Below, piece after piece: positions 203 to 6,108 of a stretch of 64,000 nt of DNA. The translations under genes and the position numbers were made by a program. Position 1 is the first letter of the stretch; every line of letters starts with the position of its first letter. The stretch lies in assembly GCF_011694815.1 (NCBI RefSeq), contig NZ_CP050177.1:3286001-3350000 (forward strand). Direction: 5' to 3'. This DNA comes from Streptomyces liangshanensis. GTDB taxonomy: Bacteria; Actinomycetota; Actinomycetes; Streptomycetales; Streptomycetaceae. The notes under the pieces were generated by a model that was not told where the DNA came from, ran no database searches, and worked only from the letters and a program-made list of their open reading frames with translations.

Positions 203-1342
203 TCAGCCCAGCCAGCGGCGCAGCCGCAGCCGCTCCCACAGGAGGCTGGCCACGAAGGACAGGCCGACGGTCGCCACCGTCAGCGCGGCGAGCAGGGCCG
301 GGGCGTGCAGCCATCCCGCGCGGGCCGTGACCAGGTGCGGGGCGAGGGCCTGGAGGAAGAACAGGTGGACGAGGTACGCGCCGAAGGCCGCGCCGCCGAG
401 CCGGGTCAGGAGGGGCCGCAGCCGCTCGGGCACGGTGAGCCCGTTGAAGGCCATCAGCAGGGCGCCGACGAGGAGCGCCACGAAGGGGCTCGCGTACGGC
501 GACGGGAAGTGGACGTAGTGCTCCTCGGCGACGACGGCGGCCCAGGCGCAGCCGGCGGCTGCGAGCCAGAGCAGGCGGCGCCGGCGGCCGGTCGTCACGG
601 AGCGCGGCACGGTGAGCAGCAGCGCCCCGGCGACCGCGTACACCACCTGGTAGAGGGTGAAGGTCCAGGTGAAGGAGGGCAGTTGGAGGTCGAGGAGCTT
701 GTTCGCGTCGGTGCGCAGGGTCGGCGCGAGCGCGAGGGCCAGCAGCGCGACGCCAGGGCCCCAGGGCCGCTTGCCCGCCCTGATGAGCACCACGGTCGAC
801 AGGAGCAGGATCACCGGCGCGTACGTGTACAGGTACCAGAGGTGGAAGGCGGGCCGTACCGTCCCGAAGAGCGCGTCGAGCGCCAGCGACCGGGTGGGGT
901 CGGGGTTGGTGTCCCGCACCCAGCCCCACAGCAGGTACGCGGCCGTCCACACGGCCATCGGCACCAGGATGCGCGTCAGGCGGGTGCGGACCTGGGCGCC
1001 GTCGCGGGGCGGCGCCCCCGAGAGGACCACCCAGCCGGCCATCGCGAAGAACAGGGGGACGGCGCAGCGGCTGAGCCCGTCGGCCACCACCGCCGTCCAG
1101 TAGACGGGGGAACCGCCTGCCGGGGACCGGCCCACCGCCGTCATGAGCTCCCCGGCGGCGTGGCACACGATGACGCCGACCGAGGCCAGGACGCGGATCA
1201 GGTCGATGTCGTACCGGTGTTCACGCACCCGCGGAACGGCGGGGGTGGTGACCGGCGCGGGGACGGGAGGGGTGGTCGGCAGCAGCCCTGGGTTGTGCAT
1301 CAGGGCACGATACGGTCGCGCCCGGAAACGGGGAGCCGTCAT
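203..1342 (-). CDS. Acyltransferase family 3 integral membrane protein
   Basis: Likely an inner-membrane O-acyltransferase of the acyltransferase-3 (OafA/WecH-like) family, which transfers acyl groups to cell-surface glycans or secreted compounds; the substrate cannot be read from sequence. About 379 residues and mostly hydrophobic, with roughly ten membrane spans. The first helix carries the family pattern (YDIDLIRVLASVGVIVCHA) with conserved Arg and His. The ATG at 1342 is preferred because GGGGAG lies upstream and because an earlier GTG would overlap the preceding gene. It starts 38 bp after the DUF916 gene on the same strand, so it is probably the third gene of a surface-protein operon beginning with the metallophosphatase at 4511. 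The family call is firm; the operon role is inference. Confidence 0.85.
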   Translation of the reverse strand: MTAPRFRARPYRALMHNPGLLPTTPPVPAPVTTPAVPRVREHRYDIDLIRVLASVGVIVCHAAGELMTAVGRSPAGGSPVYWTAVVADGLSRCAVPLFFAMAGWVVLSGAPPRDGAQVRTRLTRILVPMAVWTAAYLLWGWVRDTNPDPTRSLALDALFGTVRPAFHLWYLYTYAPVILLLSTVVLIRAGKRPWGPGVALLALALAPTLRTDANKLLDLQLPSFTWTFTLYQVVYAVAGALLLTVPRSVTTGRRRRLLWLAAAGCAWAAVVAEEHYVHFPSPYASPFVALLVGALLMAFNGLTVPERLRPLLTRLGGAAFGAYLVHLFFLQALAPHLVTARAGWLHAPALLAALTVATVGLSFVASLLWERLRLRRWLG

Positions 1343-1380
1343 CGGGTGAACATCTCCCCAACCCCGCGCGTCCCGCCGTC

Positions 1381-2460
1381 TCACGCCGTCGGGGTGTGCT
1401 GGTCCCGCAGTGCCTGGTCCACCGCTTCCCGTACGCGCGCGTCCTCGCGGGCCCTGCGGCGGGCGCGGGTGCGGCGGGACTGGCGGAACGCGACCGCGGC
1501 GAGGGCGATCAGGGCCACCGCCAGCAGCAGGAGGGGCCAGGGGACCGCCCAGGCCCGGGTGGTGGCGTGGGTCGGCTTCAGGGTGCTGGTGGAGCCCGAC
1601 TCGTCGGTGAGTACGGGGGTCAGGGTCACCGTCGCGGTCAGGCGGACCGCCGAGGGCACGTCACGCACCGGGACCTCGACCTTCCAGGTCTCGCCCGGGA
1701 GCAGTTGCGGCGGGGCGGCGATCCGTGCGGCGTCCGTACGGAACCAGCCGAACGGGCCCGCGATGGAAACCGCCTGACGGGCCGACAGGATCGCGTTGCC
1801 CGTGTTGTGGATCGTGTACGTGACGGTCGCGTCGCCCCGGGTGAAGGGGTTGGCCGGGGTGGTGTGGTCCAGGTGGAGCTTCTCGACCGCGAGTTGAGGC
1901 TTGAGCGTGCCACCGACCCTGAGCTTGACGCGGATTCCCAGGCGTCGGTCGACGTTGATGCCCTCGGCATCGTCCGGCTGCTTGAGGGAGGTGAGGATGC
2001 CGCCCACGTAGTCGCCGGGCGGGGCGTTCTCGGGAATCGAGGCCGTGAAGGGGAGTTGGGCCGACTTGCCGGGCGGGACGGTGACGGTGGCGCGGGCCGC
2101 GTGCACCCAGGCGCCGACGCCGACCGACTTCTTGTCCCGGGTCAGCAGGTCGAGTTGGCCGGTGTCCGTGGTGAACCCGTCGGCCGCGTAGACCGTGAGC
2201 GTGAGGGGGGACTTTCCGTGGTTGGCCACGACCATGGCGTCCTTGAGCTGTCCGCCCGGGTTGACGGCGTAGCTGAAGCTGGACCGGTCGTCGCCGTAGC
2301 TGTTCGCGGCCGTCCTGACCGTCCAGGTCACGTCGCCGTCGGCCGCCGTCGCGGAGCCCGCGGGCAGGACGGCGAGGACGAGCGCGGTGAGGACGAGGCC
2401 CGTGAGCAGGGCGGCGGAGGTGCGGATACGGGTCGCGGTACGGACAACGGGCGCGTGCAT
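1381..2460 (-). CDS. DUF916-type WxL-interacting membrane-anchored surface protein
   Basis: A 359-residue exported protein. It has a signal peptide (residues about 1-40, ending near GSATAADG), a beta-rich DUF916 domain (about 45-165; the stretch VPPGKSAQLPFTASIPENAPPGDYVGG is spread across its core), a second Ig-like domain with NTGNAILSARQ, one C-terminal membrane helix (WPLLLLAVALIALAAVAF) and a basic cytoplasmic tail. In Firmicutes this architecture belongs to WxL-interacting proteins, which bind peptidoglycan and WxL-domain partners. The ATG at 2460 is chosen because the signal peptide starts there. The upstream neighbour ends in a WxL-like domain, so the two probably form a surface complex. 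The domain assignment is by pattern recognition; the partnership is inference. Confidence 0.8.
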   Translation of the reverse strand: MHAPVVRTATRIRTSAALLTGLVLTALVLAVLPAGSATAADGDVTWTVRTAANSYGDDRSSFSYAVNPGGQLKDAMVVANHGKSPLTLTVYAADGFTTDTGQLDLLTRDKKSVGVGAWVHAARATVTVPPGKSAQLPFTASIPENAPPGDYVGGILTSLKQPDDAEGINVDRRLGIRVKLRVGGTLKPQLAVEKLHLDHTTPANPFTRGDATVTYTIHNTGNAILSARQAVSIAGPFGWFRTDAARIAAPPQLLPGETWKVEVPVRDVPSAVRLTATVTLTPVLTDESGSTSTLKPTHATTRAWAVPWPLLLLAVALIALAAVAFRQSRRTRARRRAREDARVREAVDQALRDQHTPTA

Positions 2461-2486
2461 CGTGAGGTTCTCCAGGAACGGGAGGC

Positions 2487-2514
2487 GGGGCAGGCGCCGG
2501 AGCGCGCCTGCCCC
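2487..2514 (-). other. Intergenic hairpin between the metallophosphatase and DUF916 genes
   Basis: A perfect 11-bp inverted repeat (GGGGCAGGCGC, 6-nt loop, GCGCCTGCCCC) fills most of the 74-bp gap. No T-tract follows, so it may be a partial terminator or an mRNA-stabilising hairpin that sets the ratio of the two products. Confidence 0.5.
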
Positions 2515-2534
2515 ACCCCTTGGAACGGGTCCGG

Positions 2535-4511
2535 TCAGCTGCTCAGCGCGGTGATCGTCAGCGTGGCCCGGTAGCCACCCTTCTCGACGCTGTCCGGGAT
2601 CTTCAGGTCGAGGTCGGCGCCCAGCCTCGCCGTACCCCGCGGGTGGCCCTGCGCCGCCGAGCCGAGGCCGCGCGCGACGGACAGGCCCTTGCCGTGGTCG
2701 TCGTACCCGGAAGCCACCGGGTCGCTGGCCTTGGCGCCGGCACCGCCGTCGAGGACCTGCGGCGTCCAACCGAGGTTCGCGCCGGAGAACGTCTTGTCGG
2801 CGTCCTTGAAGTCACTCACGCTGGCCGACACCGACCAGGGCGCGAGCGAGCGGCGGCTGTCCGAGACGAGCAGCGGGTTGATCTTGCCGGCCGCCTCGAA
2901 GTGGTCGCCGTTGCGCTCCTGCGCGGTGCCGAGGTCCACCAGGCCGTTGTAACCGTCGATCGTCCAGCCGAACTCACCGGGTGCGGCCTTCGGCACGTTG
3001 ACCTGGAGCGACTGGCTGTCGCCGTGGTACGGGTGCACGCTGACCTTGTCGACCAGCGAGCCGACGGGCTGGGCGGCGTCCGTGTTGTTGCACCAGGAGC
3101 CGCGCGTGACCGCCGAGTTCGGCGCCGCGCACGTGCCGCTGCGGACGTTCTCGACGACGAGCTTGTCGTTGCGCACCTGCACCTTGACGTAGGTGCGGAC
3201 GTGCTCCTGGTTCTGGACCGAGTTGTACCAGTAGCTGTCCGGGTTCAGCGGGTCGGCGCCGTTGCCGGCCCCGCTCGTCCCGCTGCTGTCCGGCTGCGTG
3301 ATGTCGTAGTACTTCGAGCCCGAGGCCGAGTTGCCCGTGACGTACAGGACACCGCCGGGACCGGGGTACACGTCGGCGGCGCCGGGCTTCTCGGCCGGGT
3401 CCGCCTTCTCACCGTTCTTGATCAGGTAGCTGCGGGAGTAGCTGTGGTCGTGACCCTGGAGCACCAGGTCCACGCCGAGCTTGGAGAACGTGGTCGGGAA
3501 GTCGACACGCCGCGTCTTGTTGTCGCTGTCCTTGGCGTGGTCGGCCGGCGAGTAGATCGAGTGGTGGTACGTGAGCACCTTCCACTTCGCCTCGGAACCG
3601 TGCTTGTTGATGATGTCGGTGACGTACGCGAGGTGCGCCGCGTCACCGCCGCCGCCCTGCGAGGTGGCGTAGCTGTTGCTGTTGAGGTCGATGAACAGCA
3701 CATCCTTGTAGATGTACCAGTAGTCACCGCCGGACGTGTTGGACGCCGGGTTCCCGTTGGAGTAGTACGGGGCCGAGCGGTCCGTGTTCGGCGTCGAGAA
3801 GTGCTGCTCGTACGCCTTGCCGCCGACGTCGTGGTTGCCGATGGTGGCGGCCCACGGGTAGGAGCGGAGCTTGTCGGGCGCCAGGAAGGAGTTCCACTGG
3901 GACTCGTTGTTCGCGGTCTCGACCTGGTCACCGCCCGACACCAGGAGTTCGGCGTTCGGGTTCGCCGCCGTGGCGACGTCCACGGTGTCCTGCCAGCCTG
4001 CCTGGTCCTGCGCCAGGTCGCCGGAGGAGCCGATCTGCGGGTCGCCGAAGAACAGGAAGTCGTAGTCGCCTTCGAAGTCCTGCGTCTTGAAGGAGTACGC
4101 CGCCGACCAGTTGCCCTCGGTGCCGACACGGTACGTGTACGCCGTGTCCTCCTTCAGGCTGGTGATCGTCGCGTGCCGGTTGAACCCGCCGCTGGTGGCG
4201 ATGTTCGCCGCGCCGGTCGCGTCGAAGGTGGCCGCGCCGGCGGGGAACTCGCCGTTGACGAGCTCCGCGGTCGGGGCGACCTGGAGCTTCTGCGCGGTGT
4301 CGGCGGAGGAGTACCACGTCACGGTGCGCTGGGTCTCGTTCGCGCCCACGCCGAGGATGATGCCGGAGAGCGTGGCCGGCTCGGCGGCGGCGACAGGGGA
4401 CGCCATCCCGCTGCCGAGAGCGACGGTCAAGCCCAGGACCGCCGCGGTGACCCCGGTGGCCACGCGGCGCCGCACAAGCCCGGAGGCCTGTGTCGAGGTG
4501 CTCAATTTCAT
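2535..4511 (-). CDS. Secreted purple-acid-phosphatase-like metallophosphoesterase with C-terminal WxL-like domain
   Basis: A 658-residue exported phosphatase. Order of parts: signal peptide (1-43), an N-terminal beta-sandwich like that of purple acid phosphatases (about 45-145), and a calcineurin-type metallophosphatase core (about 147-410). The core has GDPQIG, GGDQVE, GNHD, YHHSIYS and GHDHSYSR as metal ligands for a dinuclear centre. The last 150 residues are beta-rich, with APWSVSASVSDF, GANLGWTPQVL and a final GGYRATLTITALSS. That pattern resembles the WxL domain of Gram-positive surface proteins rather than a catalytic module. It leads a minus-strand operon with the DUF916 gene. A PHO-box-like repeat lies upstream. 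It probably releases phosphate from organic esters at the cell surface. The enzyme class is confident; the WxL assignment is pattern-based. Confidence 0.85.
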   Translation of the reverse strand: MKLSTSTQASGLVRRRVATGVTAAVLGLTVALGSGMASPVAAAEPATLSGIILGVGANETQRTVTWYSSADTAQKLQVAPTAELVNGEFPAGAATFDATGAANIATSGGFNRHATITSLKEDTAYTYRVGTEGNWSAAYSFKTQDFEGDYDFLFFGDPQIGSSGDLAQDQAGWQDTVDVATAANPNAELLVSGGDQVETANNESQWNSFLAPDKLRSYPWAATIGNHDVGGKAYEQHFSTPNTDRSAPYYSNGNPASNTSGGDYWYIYKDVLFIDLNSNSYATSQGGGGDAAHLAYVTDIINKHGSEAKWKVLTYHHSIYSPADHAKDSDNKTRRVDFPTTFSKLGVDLVLQGHDHSYSRSYLIKNGEKADPAEKPGAADVYPGPGGVLYVTGNSASGSKYYDITQPDSSGTSGAGNGADPLNPDSYWYNSVQNQEHVRTYVKVQVRNDKLVVENVRSGTCAAPNSAVTRGSWCNNTDAAQPVGSLVDKVSVHPYHGDSQSLQVNVPKAAPGEFGWTIDGYNGLVDLGTAQERNGDHFEAAGKINPLLVSDSRRSLAPWSVSASVSDFKDADKTFSGANLGWTPQVLDGGAGAKASDPVASGYDDHGKGLSVARGLGSAAQGHPRGTARLGADLDLKIPDSVEKGGYRATLTITALSS

Positions 4512-4573: not shown

Positions 4574-4617
4574 ACCGGATGAACCGGCCGAGAATGGGAT
4601 GGTGGAATTGGCTGAAC
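4574..4617 (-). promoter_or_regulatory. Candidate PHO box upstream of the metallophosphatase
   Basis: Read on the minus strand, GTTCAGCCAAT (4617-4607) and GTTCATCCGGT (4584-4574) start exactly 33 nt apart, that is, three 11-nt units. Streptomyces PhoP binds 11-nt direct repeats of the GTTCACC type. The two middle units are degenerate. Position about 60-105 bp before the start codon and the phosphatase product make PhoP control plausible but unproven. Confidence 0.4.
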
Positions 4618-4727: not shown

Positions 4728-5936
4728 TCAGACCCCCAACACCCGCTCCACGCACCAGATCAGGCCCATCGCGGACACCCCCGCCGAGACCGCCCCGGTC
4801 ACCCACAGCCCCGCCCTCGGCGCCCGGTGGCGCAGCAGGGTCAGCAGGGGGAAGACGGCGGCGATGAGGGTCAGCTGGACGACCTCGATGCCGACGTTGA
4901 ACACCAGCAGCGACCACAGCAGCGTCCACGACCACGCCTCGTCGATGCCCAGCGCGCCCGCGAACCCCAGCCCGTGCACCAGGCCGAAGCAGAACACCAC
5001 CCCCAGGCGGGTCCACCCCGCCCGGTCCAGGCTGAAGTGACCGCGCCCCTCCGTCTCCAGGTCGGCGGCGTGCCCGCCCTGCCGCCAGATCCGCCACAGG
5101 TACCAGCCCGCGACCACGGCGATCGACAGCGCGATGACGGGCTCCACGACCCGCGCGGGCACGTCGACCAGACCGAGCGCGGCGAGCAGGAACGTCACCG
5201 AGTGCGCCAGGGTGAAACTGGTCGCCGCGAGCACGATCTCCCGCAGCCGCCGCGACCCGGCGATGAGCGCCAGCAGGAACAGGATGTGGTCGATGCCGGT
5301 CAGCAGGTGCTCGGCGCCGAGGCGGAAGAACTCCCAGAACCGCTCGTACCAGGCCTGCGCCGTCGAGAAGGACGGGTGCGCGGCGTCGAGCGCGGCGCTG
5401 CCCGAGCGGCCGTCGAGGTCGTACGTGACGATCGTCTTCGTCCCGGTGACGTACGACTCGGAGTCGGGGAACAGCCCGGCACGCACCTCGTGCGCGTCGC
5501 CCCGCTCCTGGCAGGTCCAGTCGAGCAGCAGATCGGTGTACGGCGCGCCCTCGTGCCGGCTCATCGTGAAGGGCCCGACCCGGCTCGGCGTGCACGCGTG
5601 GCCCGCCGAGGTGACGGAGAAGCGCCGGGTGACGTACGCGACCGCCGACTTCGCGTGGGCGTTGAGCGCCGCGGCCTGTGCGGCGGTGTCACCGGCGTCG
5701 AACGCCGCCGTGCCCGTACGGAAGAGGGAGTCGTCGTGCTCGAAGTCGGCGGTGGAGACGACGAAGAGGTCGTACTCGAGCTTGAGCGTCGTGCGTATGT
5801 GACCGTCGTCGCCCGCGGCGACACCGACGTACACGGTCGACGAGAAGCCGTGGGCGGAGGCCGGTTGAGCCGTGCCCAGGAATGCGATCAGCGCCGCGGT
5901 GATCCCGATGATGGTGCGGCGCACCCGTCGTGACAT
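4728..5936 (-). CDS. HupE/UreJ-like membrane protein with exported N-terminal domain
   Basis: A 402-residue protein. A signal peptide ends near AQPASAHGF. An outside domain of roughly 180 residues with a Cys pair follows (HACTPSRVG and LLDWTCQERG). Then comes a multi-helix HupE/UreJ_2-type membrane domain from about residue 205, with the family hallmarks LGAEHLLTGIDHILFLLAL, FTLAHSVTFLLA and LVHGLGFAGALG. The histidines in these motifs are conserved across HupE/UreJ proteins, which are linked to nickel or cobalt handling. Proteins with this two-part layout are common in actinobacteria and have no settled function. The upstream 11-nt repeats suggest phosphate control. A cobalt-import role is an alternative, given the cobalamin genes 6 kb away, but nothing in the sequence decides it. 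Confidence 0.75.
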   Translation of the reverse strand: MSRRVRRTIIGITAALIAFLGTAQPASAHGFSSTVYVGVAAGDDGHIRTTLKLEYDLFVVSTADFEHDDSLFRTGTAAFDAGDTAAQAAALNAHAKSAVAYVTRRFSVTSAGHACTPSRVGPFTMSRHEGAPYTDLLLDWTCQERGDAHEVRAGLFPDSESYVTGTKTIVTYDLDGRSGSAALDAAHPSFSTAQAWYERFWEFFRLGAEHLLTGIDHILFLLALIAGSRRLREIVLAATSFTLAHSVTFLLAALGLVDVPARVVEPVIALSIAVVAGWYLWRIWRQGGHAADLETEGRGHFSLDRAGWTRLGVVFCFGLVHGLGFAGALGIDEAWSWTLLWSLLVFNVGIEVVQLTLIAAVFPLLTLLRHRAPRAGLWVTGAVSAGVSAMGLIWCVERVLGV

Positions 5937-5971
5937 GTGACTCCTTCAGGTTGCGTGTGCACGCTCCATGC

Positions 5972-6004
5972 CGGGGGTGAACACGAACCGGCCCGTCGGC
6001 GAAC
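5972..6004 (-). promoter_or_regulatory. Candidate PHO box upstream of the HupE/UreJ-like gene
   Basis: On the minus strand three contiguous 11-nt units read GTTCGCCGACG, GGCCGGTTCGT and GTTCACCCCCG (6004 down to 5972). The outer two match the GTTCACC-type PhoP direct-repeat unit and are exactly 22 nt apart. The site lies 36-68 bp before the start codon, inside the divergent intergenic region shared with the lipoprotein gene at 6109. Confidence 0.5.
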
Positions 6005-6108
6005 CGTGGAAAAACATGCGTGAGAACGACACCTGGGGAGGAAGGGGACAGCGATTCGGACCGCAGGATGGAGGCGCACCATCCGCCACCACTCGGAGGA
6101 CGATCCCC

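Follow-up and report, generated by a model that had tools for sequence, protein, structure and literature searches.

How could a secreted enzyme be held at the surface of an actinobacterium? We asked this question of a locus of Streptomyces liangshanensis that lies in a stretch of 64,000 nucleotides (RefSeq assembly GCF_011694815.1, contig NZ_CP050177.1, positions 3,286,001 to 3,350,000), hereafter called the window. Its genes are transcribed from the minus strand in the order HupE/UreJ_2 permease, phosphatase, DUF916 protein, acyltransferase. An earlier note on this DNA had proposed that the phosphatase ends in a domain close to the WxL domain of Firmicutes surface proteins and that the DUF916 protein tethers it near the membrane. 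We consider it likely that the two proteins belong to an actinobacterial WxL/WxLIP-type two-protein display module, which would tether secreted proteins to the membrane. As far as sequences can tell, tethering is the best-supported reading, widened here to a general module with the upstream permease and without the acyltransferase. The sequences show the homology, the constant adjacency, the anatomy of the proteins and the variety of cargo; docking, localisation, topology, substrate, phosphate control and the part played by the permease are inferred. WxL homology, adjacency to DUF916 and complementary anatomy speak for the earlier proposal; the acyltransferase and a strict rule of domain with DUF916 did not hold. 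The two central genes and their parts are as follows.

2535..4511, minus strand: purple-acid-phosphatase-like metallophosphatase, predicted to be secreted, 658 aa, with a WxL-like C-terminal domain (open reading frame and Pfam).
4083..4364, minus strand: Pur_ac_phosph_N (PF16656), phosphatase residues 50-143 (59.4 bits, cut-off 30).
3438..4058, minus strand: calcineurin-like phosphoesterase domain (Metallophos, PF00149), phosphatase residues 152-358 (Pfam and motifs).
2538..3044, minus strand: WxL-like C-terminal domain, phosphatase residues 490-658, with proximal W559-S-V and distal YRATLTITAL lacking the second W (profiles, AlphaFold2 model).
1381..2460, minus strand: DUF916 / WxLIP-type protein, 359 aa, with a signal-like N-terminus (Pfam and hydropathy).
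1996..2304, minus strand: match to WxLIP_PGBD (PF06030), residues 53-155 of the 359-aa form (39.2 bits, cut-off 27.3).
1492..1548, minus strand: predicted transmembrane (TM) segment near the C-terminus of the DUF916 protein (residues 305-323), with a conserved basic tail behind it (hydropathy, relatives).

We examined how constantly the two genes stand together. The class sample comprised 246 genomes, and PF06030 gave 92 matches in 54 of them. The surroundings of all 92 DUF916 genes were scanned, some of them ending at contig edges, and the co-occurrence and promoter statistics given here ignore phylogeny. We observed a WxL-like open reading frame directly upstream of 70 of the 92 genes. Among the other 22, six had less than 500 bp of contig upstream and six had a WxL-like frame nearby on the same strand. 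From a seed of nothing but 120 phosphatase tails, a hidden Markov model (HMM) detected 77 frames in its first pass, 72 of them on the strand of DUF916; after five passes it had 94, of which 87 lay on that strand. An alignment of 18 actinobacterial C-terminal tails (A3), searched against the 246 genomes, gave 138 WxL-like matches in 53 genomes; DUF916 comes directly after 65 of them and lies within 5 kb of 87. There were 45 genomes with both families, 8 with the WxL-like domain only, 9 with DUF916 only and 184 with neither. Used as an unbiased query, the window protein alone yielded 8 matches confined to the tail. Six of them stand directly upstream of a DUF916 gene, another is in the same cluster at a distance of 2.9 kb, and the last has no DUF916 nearby. 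Of 198 genomes sampled from the phylum, 16 had WxL (E<=0.1; 3 above the cut-off) and 16 had DUF916 (E<=1e-3), and in 9 about 1 kb or less separated the two.

The pairing was also followed in named loci, the best 80 of 183, so that the counts are biased to close relatives (Streptomyces, Micromonospora, Planotetraspora, Herbidospora, Dactylosporangium, Cellulomonas and others). An intact phosphatase with its tail was present in 78 of the 80, and DUF916 follows in 77 (76 by script, and L190, which has HupE, phosphatase and DUF916 in order, read by hand). Two of the three loci without DUF916 end at the contig (L155, L183), and the third (L160) has only a piece of phosphatase, 237 aa long, with neither neighbour; in L219 a cargo other than phosphatase precedes DUF916. 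The conserved adjacency for which the earlier note had proposed a survey was found in both sets. We found no further copies of the module in the source genome, where Pfam gave one DUF916 and one WxL-like match and where A3, with 14 of the 97 candidates of a first look scored, gave a single match at E<=1e-5. Three genomes of family f85 (G420, G385, G298) carry 6-7 DUF916 and 7-13 WxL-like matches each, which suggests expansion of the module there.

Is the tail of the phosphatase really related to WxL? The strings quoted for it in the earlier note, APWSVSASVSDF, LGWTPQVL and YRATLTITAL, are all present, the last one followed by SS. We compared A3 with an alignment (A4) of 7 small proteins of WxL type, taken from distant relatives at the level of the phylum, and obtained a hhalign probability of 98.6 (P = 6e-16, 143 columns). 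The controls against A3 reached 0.0-0.3 for ten column-shuffled versions of A4, 0.2 for one reversed version and 4.8 for one DUF916 alignment. A3 also matched a WxL protein of Paenisporosarcina, a member of Firmicutes (P = 8.6e-7). The search with A4 gave 295 matches among 8000 scored candidates, and some of the 120 matches listed, one of them from Paenisporosarcina, bear the name WxL in their source. Five members of A4 were compared with Pfam WxL, and L035 (45.5 bits), L036 (36.6) and L044 (28.7) exceeded the cut-off of 25, L041 scored 14.3 and L042 gave no match. Small stand-alone WxL-type proteins, with open frames of 182-255 aa, occur in actinobacteria as they do in Firmicutes. Ten actinobacterial proteins in all, these five members of A4 among them, were scanned with Pfam: only the three just named were above the WxL cut-off, four were below it and three were without match. 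L103 (3420-5366), which belongs to the genus of the window, combines GH43, a ricin-B lectin and the same tail, scores 32.5 bits with Pfam WxL and adjoins DUF916. In the 70 proteins encoded directly upstream of DUF916, the proximal motif is W-x-[VLI], a relaxed W-x-L: W is retained in 67, and the third residue is V in 32, L in 24, I in 4 and another in 10. From the distal YxxxLTWxL motif these proteins retain Y (68/70) and T (67/70).

Three results count against a WxL assignment. Pfam WxL (PF13731) matched residues 543-629 of the window phosphatase with E = 0.023 and 15.1 bits, below the gathering cut-off of 25; 50 of the 70 module proteins had no Pfam WxL match at E<0.01; and the distal W is absent from the window protein and from all 70 (L 43, F 15, I 7, V 2, H 2, T 1 at its position). 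We use the name WxL-like because this second W is absent. The low Pfam score and the missing W would be expected if beta-rich tails resembled WxL by chance. We regard such an accident as extremely improbable, given the profile-profile P of 6e-16 with flat shuffled controls, the chain of similarity through proteins above the Pfam cut-off and the adjacency to DUF916. Judged from the profiles, the tail is a homologue of the Firmicutes WxL domain and not a canonical dual-WxL domain, so the likeness claimed in the earlier note holds at the level of homology.

The same tail occurs on proteins other than phosphatases. Residues 490-658 were matched by 463 of 2222 candidate database proteins (E<=1e-3), and all 120 of these matches that were listed contain Metallophos. 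Using phmmer, we detected the tail also in frames without phosphatase match directly upstream of DUF916 (L030-L034). We searched the 70 upstream proteins with Pfam (E<0.01) and found Big_3_5 in 7, phosphatase in 6, HtaA in 4 and I-set in 2, besides single cases of GH18, GDPD and GH43 with ricin-B lectin; WxL itself, present in 20, was the most frequent of 23 families. For 25 of the 70 the scan was also performed singly, and in one batch 6 of 10 had no Pfam match at E<0.01. HtaA, a domain of heme-binding type, stands with a WxL-like tail upstream of DUF916 in L047, L050, L082 and L094, of which only L047 exceeds the HtaA cut-off. The module bears different cargo in different loci.

We then considered the DUF916 protein as the candidate anchor. 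The mechanical frame of its gene starts at 2769, and an ATG at 2460 is the likelier start. As the earlier note had stated, the gene next to the phosphatase encodes a DUF916 protein with a signal-like start (hydrophobic residues 16-34) and a C-terminal anchor, both by hydropathy only. The protein matches WxLIP_PGBD, and a basic tail follows the anchor. About 150 residues separate the WxLIP_PGBD match from the TM segment. With the solved EfmWxLIP1 we obtained only a weak, non-significant profile match over the PGBD region (E = 0.26). A C-terminal membrane segment is present in 87 of 89 complete DUF916 frames of the class sample, with at least 3 K/R right after it in 78, and in all 44 close relatives (alignment A7), whose tails keep R, E, V, A and L positions. 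The DUF916-linked cargo is different: none of the 70 proteins has a C-terminal membrane segment or LPxTG of its own, and 59 have a hydrophobic segment within the first 90 residues. This complementary anatomy, with cargo lacking an anchor and DUF916 carrying a TM segment, argues for DUF916 as the anchor. The motif NQIDKxxxYFDLK is described for WxLIP proteins (PMC10599100; the papers cited in this text are drawn on in part). It is absent from the window DUF916 protein, which has NSYGDDRSSFSYAV at about that place, as judged by eye.

Several observations weigh against tethering by DUF916. Pfam found no DUF3324 domain in the window DUF916 protein at E<=1, and the authors of the work on WxLIP placed its helix in the membrane of the host (PMC10599100). 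The conserved basic tail behind the DUF916 helix, which resembles a cytoplasmic stop-transfer signal, bears on that proposal. The counts of adjacency and co-occurrence are not fully independent, because part of the input to the local HMM and to A3 came from the surroundings of DUF916 genes. Among 22 sampled genomes of the window's genus, 13 have both the WxL-like domain and DUF916 and 9 have neither; the phosphatase version was found in only 2 of the 22. No Pfam-detected DUF916 is present in the eight genomes counted above as having the WxL-like domain only, and 51 of the 138 WxL-like matches lie more than 5 kb from any Pfam-detected DUF916. The latter number would suit an arrangement in which the WxL-like domain itself binds peptidoglycan or a wall polymer and DUF916 serves as a folding or export helper, not as an anchor; WxL domains have been reported to bind peptidoglycan (PMC5817068), and WxLIP has been suggested to stabilise WxL (PMC10599100). 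We find this rather unlikely, as the TM segment of 87 of 89 DUF916 proteins and the tail conserved in 44 relatives would be superfluous for a soluble helper, and the adjacency of the two families is strong.

Further points against the tether came from the phosphatases themselves. Ten phosphatases of the class sample have matches that cover residues 45-498 or more; DUF916 adjoins 9 of them, HupE adjoins 9 (in G342 HupE is 93 kb away), and 6 carry the WxL-like tail. Those of G211, G271 and G322 (L083, L086, L105) keep DUF916 and have a short tail ending in SDWLQ instead of the WxL-like domain, and G327 has phosphatase and HupE with neither the domain nor DUF916. Among all our results, these phosphatases speak most strongly against a strict rule. 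The three phosphatases that keep DUF916 without the domain, together with the presence of an Ang-2/HupE metal permease in the operon, could mean that the tail serves the phosphatase by binding carbohydrate or metal and that DUF916 is an envelope protein in its own right, which belongs to the same metal/phosphate regulon and is co-regulated with the enzyme without being bound to it. To us this seems quite improbable: the homology to WxL is strong, and the domain tracks DUF916 and not phosphatase or permease, because it is found on HtaA, GH18, GH43, GDPD and Ig-type (immunoglobulin-type) cargo upstream of DUF916. The SDWLQ end of the three proteins could be a minimal docking tip. Two more remote phosphatases, both weaker relatives, come from genomes without DUF916 match. 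That of G402 (L121) ends with LPRTG and a membrane segment, an alternative anchor of sortase type, which speaks for the tether; that of G378 has no visible anchor.

We therefore keep the tether as the preferred reading and picture it as follows. The phosphatase would be exported and its C-terminal WxL-like beta domain would fold and dock on the extracellular DUF916 domain of the protein encoded by the next gene. The latter is predicted to be a single-pass protein, with a signal peptide, an extracellular part, a C-terminal TM helix and a basic cytoplasmic tail. Docking would hold the enzyme at the interface of membrane and wall and prevent its loss to the medium. LPxTG/sortase-anchored surface enzymes are comparable, being secreted enzymes fixed to the envelope, as the distant relative with LPRTG would be; here the anchor would be a second, non-covalent membrane protein.

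How the two proteins might fit together is suggested by structure. We found no relative of the WxL-like domain in PDB by sequence at E<=0.05. A VIA-align search with its AlphaFold2 model gave FimA or CfaE-type pilin domains as the ten best matches, and no chain named WxL was among the 50 rows. The FimA entries among these ten share 8-12 percent identity with the domain, no usher or pilus is present here, and the similarity to chaperone-usher pilins may be only a shared Ig-type arrangement. PapD is a chaperone of pilins and offers a comparison for the DUF916 protein. In AlphaFold2 complexes of Firmicutes pairs, a WxLIP strand completes the WxL sandwich (PMC10599100). Because of this published strand and the ten pilin-type matches of our model, we put forward, as a tentative and somewhat doubtful idea, that WxL/WxLIP could correspond, in Gram-positives and fixed to the membrane, to the donor-strand complementation of chaperone and pilin. 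The WxL-like domain would be an incomplete pilin-like Ig sandwich, DUF916 a PapD-like permanent anchor that lends the strand, and actinobacteria would use the pair as a plug of a general kind for enzymes and for domains of heme-binding type.

The module has clear likeness to the Firmicutes WxL/WxLIP (DUF916-DUF3324) clusters (PMC10599100, PMC9772566). Both have the proximal W and the Y and LT near the end of the C-terminal beta domain, and both have a neighbouring DUF916 protein with a signal-like start and a C-terminal TM helix. The actinobacterial domain differs in lacking the distal W, its partner lacks a DUF3324 match by Pfam, and its cargo is a phosphatase, HtaA, a glycosidase, GDPD or Ig modules, not a host-binding protein. 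More than 91 percent of WxL sequences belong to Firmicutes (PMC9772566), and WxL systems are linked to host binding and virulence (PMC10599100). A homologous module with phosphatases, glycosidases, GDPD and HtaA in Streptomyces, Micromonospora and other genera would take the system away from adhesion and nearer to the display of enzymes. Such a module would also supply a hypothesis on the function of DUF916 genes in actinobacteria, and a modular tag that is a candidate for displaying proteins on the surface of Streptomyces. Among the titles and beginnings of abstracts of the open literature, a search that left out subscription papers and preprints, we found no paper on WxL-like domains of actinobacterial enzymes.

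We also inspected the catalytic part of the phosphatase. It contains the ligand-type motifs GDPQI, SGGDQVE, GNHD, YHHS and GHDHSY, and GDPQI, GNHD and GHDH are kept in all 77 intact relatives read. Purple acid phosphatases (PAP) bind Fe(III) with the Tyr of a GDxxY motif. At this position the intact relatives have Glu (75 of 77) or Asp and Pro (the remaining two), and never Tyr. Strict identity as a 'purple' acid phosphatase was rejected for lack of this ligand, although both PAP-type Pfam domains are present. With Glu in the place of Tyr the enzyme should not be purple, hence the name PAP-like. Kidney bean PAP (PDB 1kbp) shares Pur_ac_phosph_N, Metallophos and the ligand-type motifs; the window phosphatase differs from it by Glu at what we take to be the GDxxY Tyr and by the additional WxL-like tail.

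The remaining features of the locus are listed below.

4728..5936, minus strand: HupE/UreJ_2 permease with a signal-like N-terminus and His (AHGFSS), 'anglerase' of Ang-2 type (PF13795, 126.7 bits).
5972..6015, minus strand: putative PHO-box-like operator GTTTTTCCACG GTTCGCCGACG GGCCGGTTCGT GTTCACCCCCG in 11-nt register, third unit poor, 5' of the HupE gene.
4574..4595, minus strand: putative PHO-box-like pair ATTCTCGGCCG GTTCATCCGGT, the second such site, lying between HupE and phosphatase.
203..1384, minus strand: Acyl_transf_3 gene, judged to be outside the conserved system (Pfam; relatives in 0/80 loci).

The HupE/UreJ-type gene, left out of the earlier note, is part of the conserved unit and precedes the phosphatase in 74 of the 80 named loci. 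The AHGF-type motif was matched 74 times over these 74 loci, with the cleavage site judged by eye. The Ang-2 type is described as having an N-terminal His after the signal peptide, occurring in Actinomycetota and having a metallophosphatase and DUF916 as neighbours (PMC12537917). The window permease agrees with Ang-2 HupE/UreJ-2 by its PF13795 score and by its N-terminal His after the signal peptide. The published 'anglerase' operons of Actinomycetota share with our locus these neighbours, this His and the HupE/UreJ_2 membrane part, so the gene neighbourhood of metallophosphatase and DUF916 has been known since 2025 (PMC12537917). That paper counts the neighbours, cites WxLIP and focuses on metal binding, and a WxL-like domain on the phosphatase is not mentioned in the part concerned. 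The Ang-2 domain from Microbacterium bound copper in vitro (PMC12537917). The permease is co-inherited with the module and probably handles metal for it.

Upstream of these genes we observed repeats that suggest phosphate control of the operon. The PHO-box core of S. coelicolor is GTTCACC (PMC4415409). In 74 upstream regions (the window and 73 loci), pairs of GTTCACC-like units had their best spacings, out of 38, at 22 and 33; the spacing of 11 was fifth and that of 44 was low. With two units at spacing 11, the best score had a mean of 10.27 (8.72 in random windows). GTTCAYC was present between HupE and phosphatase in 36 of 72 intergenic stretches, compared with 156 of 2880 random windows. This evidence is suggestive and not a proof, because the sequences are related by descent. 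PhoP may induce the operon under phosphate starvation, and as the repeats suggest such induction, the probable job of the enzyme would be to set phosphate free from organic esters on the surface of the cell. PHO-box-like repeats have counterparts in many genera. At 5957-5962 a GTGCAC separates the PHO-like box from the ribosome site; it occurs 5' of HupE elsewhere too and is doubled in several relatives (GTGCACCGTGCACTGGCAAC). Within 42 bp of the phosphatase start, GTGCAC was found in 12 of 76 cases and in 77 of 3800 random windows.

The earlier note had taken the acyltransferase as the third member, a place that conservation gives to the upstream HupE permease. We rejected the acyltransferase as a member of the system, as relatives were found in none of the 80 named loci and in L140, which is the nearest of the named relatives, other genes take this position, one of them an aminotransferase by eye. 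In the window, the start of the acyltransferase gene overlaps the stop of the DUF916 gene by GTGA (1381-1384).

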